From assembly GCF_039645965.1 (NCBI RefSeq), contig NZ_CP147917.1, forward strand, positions 248,001-312,000: DNA of 64,000 nucleotides. The letters run 5' to 3'. The DNA is from Sulfurimonas sp. HSL3-2. GTDB taxonomy: Bacteria; Campylobacterota; Campylobacteria; Campylobacterales; Sulfurimonadaceae. A program made the position numbers and the translations under genes. Shown here in pieces: positions 13,740 through 37,596 of this stretch. Position 1 is the stretch's first letter. Every line of letters begins with the position of its first letter. The notes beneath the pieces are model-generated. The model was given only the letters and a program-made list of their open reading frames with translations. It was not told the origin of the DNA and did no database searches.

Positions 13740-14626
13740 AACTTCGAACCGATGATCTTCTCCAGCTCTGTAAGCGGAGCTGAGATGATATCTTTAAACT
13801 GCGTACGGTTGAAAGTCTGCTGGCGTTTTGCCAGCTGAGCCGTATGTGTCGAGATGTTTTCCAACATCTTCTCTTTACTTACCAATCCGTCAAGATACTC
13901 TAAGACTTCTAATATCCCGATCGATTTCATGCTATTTGGTTCTCTTGTATATCGATGTTCCAGTCTTGTGACTTCATCTATGATACCCATGTTCAGCATC
14001 TTTTTAGATCTTTTTTCTATGCGCTCTCTTAGCAGCTCTCTCTCAACGTCTATATTGTATATCTCAAGGCCTTCTATGATTGGCTTTGGAGGATGCTTTA
14101 AAAACCACTCAGTAGGAGTAAGTCCGGAAGCTTTGTAGATAAGAAGCATCTTCTCTATTCTATAGGCATCGTTGGAGTCGATATTTTTCATATACTCTTT
14201 ATCCAGACCGTAAAGAAGCTCGTAAGAATCCTTTACATGTAAGAGCATCTTTGCTACTTCATCTTTTATGTTCTGATCGATTTTCGGGATCTCTGAGAGA
14301 CCTTGAAGAAGAGATTTTAGATAAAAAGTACTGCCGCCGACAATTATTAGGTTTTTACTCTCCTGTTTCGCTTTTAAAAGAGCATCTTTATAGATATTTA
14401 TAAAAATATCTACACTGAAGTTTTCATTGGGATATATCTCATTTATACCGAAATGTCTTATTGAAGCCAACTCTTCCTTTGAGGGTTTTGCAGAAGCGAT
14501 ATCTATCTCTTTATAGATACTAAGAGAATCGATGGACAATATATATGCATCATGTTTTTGGGCGATGTTAAGAGCGAGATCACTCTTGCCCGATGCAGTC
14601 GGACCAATAATTGCGATTTGTTTCAT
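13736..14626 (-). CDS. miaA: tRNA dimethylallyltransferase
   Basis: 296 residues. The P-loop GPTASGKSDLAL is near the N-terminus, followed by the DSLSIYKEIDIASAKPS substrate-site segment and GGSTFYLKSLLQG. MiaA attaches the dimethylallyl group to A37 of tRNAs that read codons starting with U. No ribosome-binding site is visible: a TATAAT box ends 6 bp before the ATG, so the message is probably leaderless. It is convergent with the TM2 gene and divergent from mqnP. Confidence 0.95.
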   Translation of the reverse strand: MKQIAIIGPTASGKSDLALNIAQKHDAYILSIDSLSIYKEIDIASAKPSKEELASIRHFGINEIYPNENFSVDIFINIYKDALLKAKQESKNLIIVGGSTFYLKSLLQGLSEIPKIDQNIKDEVAKMLLHVKDSYELLYGLDKEYMKNIDSNDAYRIEKMLLIYKASGLTPTEWFLKHPPKPIIEGLEIYNIDVERELLRERIEKRSKKMLNMGIIDEVTRLEHRYTREPNSMKSIGILEVLEYLDGLVSKEKMLENISTHTAQLAKRQQTFNRTQFKDIISAPLTELEKIIGSKF

Positions 14627-33429: not shown

Positions 33430-35631
33430 ATGGCAAATCCAACTATAATCTGGTCTGTGATAGATGAAGCACCTGCTTTAGCTACATATTCATTATTACC
33501 AATCGTTCAAGCTTTTGCAAAAGAAGCTGGAATCAATGTTGAACCAAGAGATATCTCTCTTGCAGGAAGAGTCATTTCTACTTTCCCAGAGTACTTGACT
33601 GAAGATCAAAGAATAGCTGATGAATTGGCATATTTAGGTGAAGTTGCTAAACAACCTGAAGGTAACATTATCAAGCTTCCAAATATCTCTGCGTCTATTC
33701 CTCAATTAAAAGAGTGTATCGCTGAGCTTCAATCTCAAGGTTATAATCTTCCTAACTATCCGGAAGATCCAAAAACTGAAGAGGAAAAAGCTTTACAAGC
33801 TAGATATTCTACTTGTTTAGGTTCTGCGGTTAACCCGGTTCTACGTGAAGGTAACTCTGACCGTCGTGCGGCAGTTGCAGTTAAAAAATTCGCTCAGAAA
33901 AACCCACACAAACTTAGAGCTTTCGAAGAAAACTCTAAAGCATGTGTAAGACATATGCAAGATGGTGACTTCTACGAAAACGAGCAATCAGTTATCACTG
34001 ATTCTGCTGCTAACGTAACTATCTCTTTAAACGGAAAAGTTCTTAAAGAGCTTAAAGACGTTCAAGATAAAGAAGTACTTGACGGTACATTCATGTCTGC
34101 AAAAGCATTACGTGCTTTCATCGCTGAGACTATCGCAGAAGCTAAAGAGGAAGGTCTTTTATGGTCTATCCACTTAAAAGCGACTATGATGAAAGTTTCT
34201 GACCCTATTATGTTCGGTCACGCTGTTGAAGTATTCTTCAAAGACGTATACGAAAAATATGCTGATGAGTTCAAAGCTCTTGGTGTTAACCCGAATCTAG
34301 GTCTTGGAGATCTAGCGAAAAAACTTGAGAAATCAAGCAAAAAAGCTGAGATCGAAGCTGCTGTTAAAGCTGTAGTTGAAGCTGCTAGCCCGGCGATCGC
34401 TATGGTTGACTCTGACAACGGTATCACAAACCTACACGCTTCAAACGACGTTATCATCGATGCTTCTATGCCGGTTGTTGTACGTGACGGCGGTAAAATG
34501 TGGAACAAAGACGGAAAAGTTCAAACTTGTATGTCTGTAATCCCTGACAGAAGCTATGCAACTTTCTACAAAGAGATCGTTGATGACTGTGTTAAAAACG
34601 GACAGTTCGATGTTACTACAATGGGTAACGTTGCAAACGTTGGTCTTATGGCACAAAAAGCTGAAGAGTACGGTTCTCACCCGACAACTTTTGAAATGGC
34701 AGAAGACGGTGTTGTAGAAGTTACTCAAAACGGAAACGTTCTTATGACTTTCAACGTTGAAAAAGGTGATATCTGGAGAATGAGCCGTACTAAAGACGAG
34801 CCGATCAAAGACTGGGTAAGACTTGCTCACGAAAGAGGAATGTTAACTGGTGATCCAATCGTATTCTGGTTAGATTCTTTCAGAGCTCACGATGCTAACA
34901 TCATCAAAAAAGTTATGGAGTATTTCCCGGCACATTTAGCTAAGACTCCGATCGAGTACCATATCATGGCTCCAAAACAAGCTATGAAACATGCACTTAA
35001 ACGTGTAAGAGCTGGTCTAAACACTATCTCTGTAACTGGTAACGTTTTACGTGACTACCTGACTGACCTTTTCCCAATTTTGGAACTAGGAACTTCAGCG
35101 AAAATGCTTTCTATCGTTCCATTACTTGCTGGTGGTGGTCTATTTGAAACTGGTGCTGGCGGATCTGCTCCTAAGCACGTTGACCAATTCCTTGCAGAGG
35201 GTCACCTTCGTTGGGATTCACTTGGTGAGTTCTTAGCACTTGCTGAGTCACTAAGATATATCGAGCAAAAACACCCAAGTGAAAAACTTGCAGAACTAAC
35301 TGCTGCACTTGACGCTGCAAATGCTGGTTACCTTGATAACAACAAAGCTCCGGGAAGAAAAGCTGGTGAGCCGGATAACAAAGCTAGCCACTTCTATGTA
35401 GCACAATACTGGGCAAAAGCTCTTGCTGGATCTAAAAATGCAGAACTTGCTGCTAAATTTGCTCCAATTGCAAAAGCTCTTGAAGAGAACGAAGCGAAGA
35501 TCATGGAAGAGTTACTTTCAGTTGAAGGTAAAGCTCAAGACATCGGTGGATACTACCACCCAGATAACGCAAAAGCAGAAGCTGCTATGCGTCCATCTGC
35601 TACTCTTAACGCTATCATCGATTCTATATAA
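33430..35631 (+). CDS. icd: NADP-dependent isocitrate dehydrogenase, monomeric type
   Basis: 733 residues, the length of the monomeric IDH family rather than the usual ~410-residue dimeric type. Start region [20 protein letters not shown] and later segments [24 protein letters not shown]-like [20 protein letters not shown], and [11 protein letters not shown] are typical. It interconverts isocitrate and 2-oxoglutarate with NADP. In Sulfurimonas-like organisms this step may run in the reductive direction of the TCA cycle; that is lineage inference. Codon use is strongly biased, suggesting high expression. A GGAG site and a strong terminator frame the gene. Confidence 0.94.
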
Positions 35632-35641
35632 TCTTTCTTTT

Positions 35642-35664
35642 CCTAAAGGGTTTGGCCCTTTGGG
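35642..35664 (+). terminator. Terminator after icd
   Basis: CCTAAAGGG and CCCTTTGGG form a 9 bp stem (one T-G pair) around TTTGG, followed by AAGCTTTCCTCTTTTT. A classic intrinsic terminator 10 bp after the stop. Confidence 0.65.
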
Positions 35665-35703
35665 AAGCTTTCCTCTTTTTATTTTCTAATCTATTTTTTT
35701 TCT

Positions 35704-35905
35704 TTACATGTAAGACTTTGTAGATATACTTTTTGACCGCAAAAAGTATCAAAAACTCTGCAACGGCTTCGAGCTTGACTGCGTCAAGTCCCCAAGAAAA
35801 AGCAACTCCATTCCTAAAAACATAAAACTCGGTTACACCTCAAACAGTTATGTTTTCTTTACGTCATTCCTTTGCTGTTTCTTGGCTCTGCAGATGTTGC
35901 AACTG
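35704..35905 (+). repeat. Left arm of a ~200 bp imperfect inverted repeat
   Basis: This arm matches the reverse complement of 36818-37018. Shared blocks, outer to inner: TTACATGTAA; TACTTTTTG-N4-CAAAAAGTA (hairpin, 35727-35748); AACTCTGCAACGGCTTCGAGC; the TGAC-N3-GTCA hairpin (35774-35788); CCCAAGAAA; CAAACAGTT; and GGCTCTGCAGATGTTGCAACTG. Divergence lies mainly in loops and between blocks. The stretch 35632-36003 has no gene; the rest of it is A+T-rich and holds the likely promoter of the next gene. Confidence 0.85.
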
Positions 35906-36003
35906 GTGTATTGACTTGTTTGGAAACGTTGACTTTCTTCGAACTAAATCAGATATAATATTTGTAGAATAAAAGTTAGTTATATGACTAAAGGTTAGAT
36001 ATA

Positions 36004-36795
36004 TTGAACAAAATAATCAAATGTTACATGTGCGATAGAGACGCTATTTCTAGTGAACATGTACCACCAAAAAATTTATTTCCTGAACTAAAAGATGTTG
36101 GAGAAGATTACAGAAAACATCTTATCACTGTACCAAGTTGTGAAATACATAACAGTGCTAAAAGTAAAGATGATGAATTCTTAATGGTTAGCCTAGCTGG
36201 CATATTTGGTAATAATTCAATTGGATACTTACATAAATTTACAAAAGTAAATCGTGCGATTAGAAGAACTTCAAATAAATTACTAGATAAAGCATTTGCA
36301 AAAAGAAAACATTACAATCTAAAAAGTGATAATGGATTTCTTGAAGTAATTTGGGGGACTCCAGACTATGCAAGGCTAATAAATTGTTTTGAACATATAG
36401 CCTATGGACTTCATTATCATCACCTACAAAAATACTTCAAAGGTGAAGTGAAAGTTCTTCTTGGTTATCTTCATAGTGAAGATGAAAGTAACCATAATTT
36501 TGTTCAGTTTCTAAAAGACAGAGCAGCAATTGATTTAATAGACATACCACACTATGGTGCAAATAAAGATATTTTTTATTATCAATTTTCAAACCCTGAT
36601 GAACATGGGATTTATATGGTTCATATGAGGTTTTATGGTGGAATCGATATTTATGCGTCATTTCTACCAGAGGATAAATCTAAACCATTTAATTTTGCAT
36701 TAGAATTGATGAAGGTATGTGATGAAACTATATTCACTCTAGGTGACAAAGAATATAAAGTTAAAAATGCTAACAAAAGAAGAAATGATATATGA
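36004..36795 (+). CDS. HNH-type nuclease-like protein inside an inverted-repeat unit
   Basis: 263 residues from a TTG start; AAAGG lies 9 bp upstream. The N-terminal 60 residues have a zinc-ribbon/HNH look: Cys7-x2-Cys10, then Ser-Glu-His19-Val-Pro-Pro-Lys, then Cys46-x2-His49-Asn50-x2-Lys53 and DDEF (56-59). The remaining 200 residues match no family I recognise and have an aromatic, Lys-rich composition. Codon use is more A+T-rich than in neighbours. It stands alone between two inverted ~200 bp repeats. DNA cleavage is an inference from the motif only. Confidence 0.65.
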   Translation: MNKIIKCYMCDRDAISSEHVPPKNLFPELKDVGEDYRKHLITVPSCEIHNSAKSKDDEFLMVSLAGIFGNNSIGYLHKFTKVNRAIRRTSNKLLDKAFAKRKHYNLKSDNGFLEVIWGTPDYARLINCFEHIAYGLHYHHLQKYFKGEVKVLLGYLHSEDESNHNFVQFLKDRAAIDLIDIPHYGANKDIFYYQFSNPDEHGIYMVHMRFYGGIDIYASFLPEDKSKPFNFALELMKVCDETIFTLGDKEYKVKNANKRRNDI

Positions 36796-36817
36796 AATTT
36801 CAGTCGAATTTTTGTGT

Positions 36818-37018
36818 CAGTTGCAACATCTGCAGAGCCGAGAAAGTGCTAATAAATAACGTGAAAAAAATTCAACTGTTTGAACGGAGTGAGTTTTGAA
36901 TTTTTAGGGATTTATTGGGAGTTTCTTGGGAACCTGACAAAGTCAGGCTCGAAGCCGTTGCAGAGTTTTTGCTTACTTTTTGCGGACAAAAAGTATGAAG
37001 AGAAGTCTTTACATGTAA
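36818..37018 (-). repeat. Right arm of the ~200 bp imperfect inverted repeat
   Basis: Reverse-complement partner of 35704-35905. It keeps the same two hairpins: TACTTTTTG-CGGA-CAAAAAGTA (36974-36995) and CCTGAC-AAA-GTCAGG (36933-36947). The second stem carries C-G where the left arm has T-A, so pairing is kept although the bases differ. The outer end is again TTACATGTAA (37009-37018). Confidence 0.85.
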
Positions 37019-37026
37019 GAAAAGAG

Positions 37027-37596
37027 TTAAACCCTCTTTTTCTTCTTTGTAGCCGTAGAAAGGTAAAGCCATAGAATTGCAAATATCGTTGCTACTACTA
37101 TGACGGCTATGTATGGTTTTTCTACTATGTGGTCGTAAATCTTTACGATGGCATTGCCTGAAAAGTAGCTTGCAAAACCTACTACTAATGTCCATACGGC
37201 AGCAGAGATGATGTTTAGTATAGTGAACTTTTTAAGATCATACTTTGTAAGTCCTATGGCGATAGGGATGAGCGTTTTGATGCCGTATACGAACTTTTGA
37301 AAAAGAATGATCCACGAGCCGTACTGTTTCATCTTTATGTGCGCTAATGCAAATTTACGTCTGTGCTTTTTCAGGTATGGGTGCAGTACCTCTTTTTGGT
37401 TTCTTGCCATGTAGAAAAGCAGGTTGTCGCCTATGGCGTTTGCACTAAAGGCGATGGCCATCGACGTAGCCAAGTCCATTTTTCCCATGTATGAGAGAAC
37501 CGATGCAGCTACAAGTGCTACAAATCCTCCACCAAGTGAGTAGATAAAAAGACCTATATATCCGTAAGTCGCGATGTTGCTTAACATATCTTCCAT
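37027..37596 (-). CDS. Second DedA-like (SNARE-associated) membrane protein
   Basis: 189 residues, five or six hydrophobic stretches. The DedA pattern is partly kept: an early GGGFVALVAASVLSYMG region, FQKFVYGIKTLIPIAIGLTK in place of the usual FIPGxR--P-AG, then a C-terminal helix and a Lys-rich tail. Divergent from the copy at 18777-19385 and closer to small DedA proteins. It probably acts in lipid movement in the inner membrane. TTACATGTAA occurs just outside both ends (37009-37018 and 37606-37615). Confidence 0.78.
   Translation of the reverse strand: MEDMLSNIATYGYIGLFIYSLGGGFVALVAASVLSYMGKMDLATSMAIAFSANAIGDNLLFYMARNQKEVLHPYLKKHRRKFALAHIKMKQYGSWIILFQKFVYGIKTLIPIAIGLTKYDLKKFTILNIISAAVWTLVVGFASYFSGNAIVKIYDHIVEKPYIAVIVVATIFAILWLYLSTATKKKKRV

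Follow-up and report, generated by a model that had tools for sequence, protein, structure and literature searches.

The two arms that enclose a 263-aa reading frame in the 64,000 nt of Sulfurimonas sp. HSL3-2 analyzed here (the window) are tentatively read, at a probability of roughly 45%, as resident members of a dispersed family of non-coding DNA repeats, whose function would rest on single-strand folding. The genome containing the window (G000) comprises 2.24 Mb on a single contig. Upstream of the left arm lies a forward-strand gene (33430-35631), which we take to be acnB-like and whose relatives were found with its C-terminus, followed by its terminator-like hairpin (35639-35667, forward strand; terminator scan). 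The forward-strand reading frame between the arms (36004-36795) is presumably HNH-like, given its C-x2-C ... C-x2-H-N pattern, and matched no family in Pfam, NCBIfam or PADLOC. After the right arm follows a convergent membrane-protein gene on the reverse strand (37027-37596), which we assume to be DedA-like. A palindrome, CTTTACATGTAAG, flanks the two-arm element and also occurs alone; with up to one mismatch it is present 10 times in the window, against 0.12 expected, at 14231, 18329, 35702, 37007, 37604, 59336 and four one-mismatch sites.

The window arms form an imperfect inverted repeat with three blocks of 90, 66 and 57 nt at 74-82% complementarity. Arms in the genus fall into two related types (A and B) of a nested hairpin of about 140 nt, with type A running TGCAACGGCTTCGAGC ... 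GCTCTGCAG..GTTGCA and type B GTGTCA..GTTGGATTT ... AAATCCAAAGTGACAC; the arm models span 145-147 positions. Both window arms are of type A: the left one (35757-35904, forward strand; TGCAACGGCTTCGAGC ... GCTCTGCAGATGTTGCA), defined by alignment and folding of 21 arms, scored 162 bits with model R1, and the inverted right one (36819-36964, reverse strand) 161 bits. Their apical core consists of an inner stem and two conserved asymmetric internal loops (left, 35800-35877, forward strand, 73.5 bits with model R3; right, 36846-36921, reverse strand, 71.3 bits). A small hairpin within each arm reads CTTGACTGCGTCAAG on the left (CTTGAC-TGC-GTCAAG; 35774-35788, forward strand), and on the right (36933-36947, reverse strand) CCTGACAAAGTCAGG on the forward strand or CCTGACTTTGTCAGG in arm orientation (CCTGAC-TTT-GTCAGG). 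A further hairpin, hairpin 1, precedes each arm and adjoins most arms in the genus. Direct reading gave TACTTTTTGACCGCAAAAAGTA for the left copy (35727-35748, forward strand; TACTTTTTG-ACCG-CAAAAAGTA) and, in arm orientation, TACTTTTTGTCCGCAAAAAGTA for the right copy (36974-36995, reverse strand; TACTTTTTG-TCCG-CAAAAAGTA), with the same 9-bp stem in both and loops of ACCG and TCCG. An earlier note on this DNA had described both the compensatory change in the small stem and the constant second stem with an altered loop, and both descriptions are borne out.

The compensatory change extends to 21 type A arms, drawn from five genomes of the genus, in which all 126 cells of the small hairpin were paired, with 16 double changes, no one-sided change and no broken pair; the mean after shuffling was 3.8 double changes, and none of 500 shuffles reached 16. 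Five stem forms were present in the alignment (CTTGAC, CCTGAC, CCTAAC, CTTGCC and CTCGCC), so that at least four double changes must have occurred, the copies not being independent events. For the whole arm, a 39-pair fold left 96.2% of 819 cells paired, with 64 double changes at 15 of the 39 pairs, versus 17.7 after shuffling and at most 13 in the six slid versions of the fold, all of which were far lower; the arm folds derive from the alignments on which they were tested, which favors the true register, and shuffling leaves relatedness in. In the apical core, an alignment of 106 distinct rows fitted to the model was paired in 98.0% of cells and held 257 double-change cells, versus 69.6 after shuffling. 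Its two loops are 5' AACTC facing TCAAACAG and 5' TA facing CTTNAC. Part of the core seed set was picked by a pattern that fixes these loop letters; the letters were likewise invariant or almost invariant in 26 rows obtained from model matches of the order search, which were not picked in this way. Pairing is thus kept while the stem letters vary freely, and the loops hardly differ in sequence among three phyla. The earlier note had proposed covariation analysis of more copies, and this came out strongly positive both for the arms of the genus and for the cross-phylum core; its view that the arms reflect more than shared ancestry, with the fold being kept, is supported on this ground. Selection, to which it also appealed, may not be needed: nearly all changes lead from one Watson-Crick pair to another with few intermediates, and DNA template switching between stem arms can give the same outcome without it.

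Template switching in replication, in which one stem arm serves as template for the other, would keep such a palindrome passively and without selection. The making of double stem changes in this way is described for RNA gene hairpins in the available text of PMC8794818, and the absence of one-sided beside 16 double changes in the hairpin with the 3-nt loop is in its favor. It leaves unexplained, however, why loop letters are fixed across phyla, why the same two-loop architecture occurs with unrelated outer stems, and why unpaired cells are tolerated in helix 3 of the arm (90.5% paired) and less so nearer the tip (97.4% paired). We consider passive upkeep unlikely, if worth keeping in view.

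Among 298 genomes of the order, 34 had matches to the arm A model and 33 to the arm B model. Scanning genome contigs with the core pattern returned 75 stretches, which record titles assign to Campylobacterota, Desulfobacterota and Bacteroidota. The core model was also run at E 1e-5 on two sets of 247 genomes, one centered on a Sphingobacterium, with 6 genomes matched, and one on a Desulfobacterales genome, with 14; both counts include the central genome. Copy numbers ranged from 1 to 56 per genome in 18 genomes; the core regular expression missed 7 of 115 loci. Pattern searches gave no match in viral contigs and none in plasmids; beyond a partial match of 36 bp in one phage record there was no sign that the arm came from a virus, phage or plasmid, and such an origin was rejected. 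Multicopy sequences of Geobacter were likewise rejected as members of the family, the available text of PMC2700814 and PMC2996986 holding no matching motif. In genome G540, core hairpins form a tandem array on one strand, spaced 310-490 bp apart (locus L353, 2838-4363), with six members by the core model and five by the pattern; a core-like loop occurs there twice, nested.

The earlier note had proposed a folded RNA or a cruciform, and of these the RNA is disfavored by rare G-T pairs and by the acnB-like gene's own terminator-like hairpin ahead of the arm. Among 1253 core cells, 6 were G-T and 18 A-C, and among 819 cells of arm A 3 and 16; in the small arm B set (363 cells) the balance was reversed, with 15 G-T and 3 A-C, 11 of the 15 G-T being one fixed doubtful pair. 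By comparison, 15 tRNAs of the same loci had G-T at 19 of 321 pairs (ARAGORN, which may bracket standard pairs only, so that its A-C count of 0 for tRNAs was left unused). The scarcity of G-T in the core relative to tRNAs favors pairing kept in DNA rather than in an ordinary RNA; the excess of A-C over G-T would also fit an RNA made from the opposite strand. If the arms were transcribed, as part of a 3' UTR or as a separate RNA, and acted as folded RNA, the strong covariation of arm and core, the location downstream of genes and the A-C excess would be accounted for. Against this, G-T is about 12 times rarer than in tRNAs, and the other strand would still hold only 18 of 1253; there was no relevant match in Rfam, which returned nothing at gathering score over the arms in five loci and the window stretch; and the strand of the core relative to genes in tandem contexts had no clear bias (20 same, 12 opposite, p 0.22). 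We therefore regard a structured RNA as unlikely.

None of 94 distinct core clusters lay inside an open reading frame, with simple ORF calling and duplicate clusters dropped beforehand. The 66 clusters with both neighbors within 1 kb lay between convergent genes in 23 cases, tandem genes in 39 and divergent genes in 4, against 13, 93 and 40, respectively, for gaps of 100-1000 bp lacking a core within these loci (convergent versus divergent, Fisher p 2.4e-7). Copies are thus intergenic and favor gene 3' ends. Such convergent placement, together with the T and A runs of hairpin 1 (of equal length in 19 of 29 copies read, 5/5 in eight and 6/6 in eleven), would suit a bidirectional transcription terminator. 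The acnB-like gene, however, is already followed by a terminator-like hairpin of its own before the left arm, the scan for intrinsic terminators (a GC-rich stem with a T run) found none within the arms, and a hairpin of about 140 nt with fixed internal loops would exceed what termination needs, which makes termination a very improbable role.

With the left arm as query, seven matches were obtained in its own genome at E 0.001 or better, the weakest being a 36-bp fragment; of the 8 genomes of the genus, 6 had matches, one of them by a 31-bp piece only. According to maps of 20 fetched loci and the window, the usual form is a head-to-head A/B pair of about 400 bp, in which a short A/T-run hairpin precedes each arm; across all two-core clusters, 14 of 17 were head-to-head. 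A/B pairs were found after genes which we take from their protein sequences to be gltX-, purL- and trpC-like, and after others. Several copies occupy orthologous sites, and for this reason recent movement is not seen within the genus. At the gltX site, the pair is present in G000, G002, G004 and G006, and nothing was found in the stretch read in G007 and G001. A lone A/T-run hairpin stands at the gltX-like site of G005 (L323) where relatives have the full pair, and represents either an empty site or the product of a deletion between the outer two hairpins.

Many copies adjoin ordinary genes, and some adjoin accessory genes that differ between species at the same site. At the acnB site, five of eight flanks were read: G000 has the HNH-like gene between two A arms, G007 has an A arm accompanied by other genes, and the stretches covered in G001, G002 and G006 contain no arm. 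Single A arms elsewhere in G000 adjoin an AbiL pair (AbiLi 2e-98, AbiLii 9e-19; RloB in Pfam) and a NACHT protein of 666 aa; neighbors of the arms in G007 include an AbiH protein and a TIGR04255-family protein. At an accC-like site, inspection by eye revealed an A arm, then B-arm-like remnants and then cargo. The proposal that arms are a general hotspot for defense genes was rejected after a comparison of ORFs near and far from cores in the fetched loci (120 ORFs sampled from each group, out of 209 near, 205 of which have no more than 900 aa, and 312 far): 174 PADLOC families were matched near and 101 far, and no enrichment is claimed, because the most-matched families have 4 of 120 members in both sets.

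Of the 298 order genomes, 3 encode the HNH-like protein, its own genome among them; relatives also occur on 10 plasmid records. The other two relatives found in the order sample were without a core in the loci fetched around them, and the gene and arms as one mobile unit were accordingly rejected. Because the cargo at the acnB site differs between G000 and G007 and these relatives lack a nearby core, the arms look resident and the HNH-like gene looks to have arrived separately. The idea of the arms as two halves of one unit is only partly right: they are dispersed resident repeats, often in cargo-free head-to-head A/B pairs, and the gene between them is found elsewhere without arms. On plasmid pAFAEC of Aliarcobacter faecis (L352, 13179-14050), a relative 79% identical to the window's protein is flanked by two direct copies of the 16-mer TAACGTCAGTGCTGAG, which we presume to be attC-like; the plasmid also carries a Tn3-family transposase.

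Integron attC sites are single-strand hairpins with fixed unpaired bases, variable genes alongside, and boxes RYYYAAC/GTTRRRY. The arms resemble them as large imperfect hairpins with fixed unpaired bases and variable accessory neighbors, and the presumed attC-like 16-mers on pAFAEC would further suit arms acting as attC with the enclosed gene as a cassette. Unlike attC, the arm ends TTGCAAC ... GTTGCAA do not, by eye, fit the boxes, and the window arms are inverted rather than direct; no core lies near the HNH relatives, and many copies sit beside ordinary genes. A cassette site of this kind seems remote.

Per the available text of PMC3733652, GTAG- and CGTC-tagged REPs are palindromes of 20-40 bp with an end tag, dispersed between or downstream of genes in several phyla, often as inverted dimers, and the CGTC type has no known transposase. 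The arm repeat shares the dispersed palindromic form, the intergenic and gene-downstream location, the inverted pairs and the span of several phyla; unlike REPs, it has about 140 nt per arm and two conserved internal loops. The four nucleotides after CTTNA were CGTC in 17 of 106 core rows and otherwise varied, and GTAG was absent from the 15 commonest such strings. A RAYT/Y1 transposase as mobilizer was rejected: the core was present in none of 33 Y1 transposase loci, and Y1 transposases were absent (E 1e-5) from 11 of 25 core-bearing genomes. The terminal inverted repeats (TIRs) of TIR-associated tyrosine transposases, which the same text describes as long, partly self-complementary and at times multicopy, resemble the arms in length and self-complementarity and differ in that no core lay beside the Y1 genes.

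Like MITEs, the repeat is non-coding and multicopy. A Saprospiraceae bin (G310), one of the genomes without Y1, has 56 core matches, and the copies read were near-identical repeats of about 480 bp with the common, TIR-like ends AGGGATATTCAG and CTGAATAACCCT, which suggests that they spread recently. Flanking repeats of 5 bp or more were seen by eye in 3 of 11 two-ended copies; Campylobacterota copies were looked at by site comparison only. Many of the G310 repeats (L268-L287) lie at contig ends. No name or description of the repeat was found in the open-licence literature, and we would class it as an undescribed variant of the REP/MITE-like palindromic repeats, set apart by its large size and its spread across phyla.

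Under the preferred reading of the arms as a dispersed DNA repeat, the active form would be one strand, folded as single-stranded DNA or as half of a cruciform. Each copy combines the short A/T-run hairpin with the long nested one, whose tip bears the inner stem between two conserved asymmetric loops. A putative protein would read the loops on the folded strand, the repeat may have spread as a non-autonomous REP/MITE-like element, and a resident copy may tolerate or attract accessory genes, such as the window's HNH-like gene, that insert at its inner end. A bolder and rather doubtful extension would see a hairpin-DNA recognition system in at least three phyla, in which a putative protein reads both loops and the sites serve as landing or exchange points for accessory genes, anti-phage genes included, much as in attC/IntI or REP/RAYT, with its own site and putative enzyme.

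The same two loops in three phyla, with stems free to vary, imply a conserved reader of the fold. Finding this reader would add a system of folded-DNA recombination or transposition, or else provide a clear-cut example of template switching that maintains palindromes. In Sulfurimonas-like genomes, the repeat marks sites where accessory and anti-phage genes lodge.
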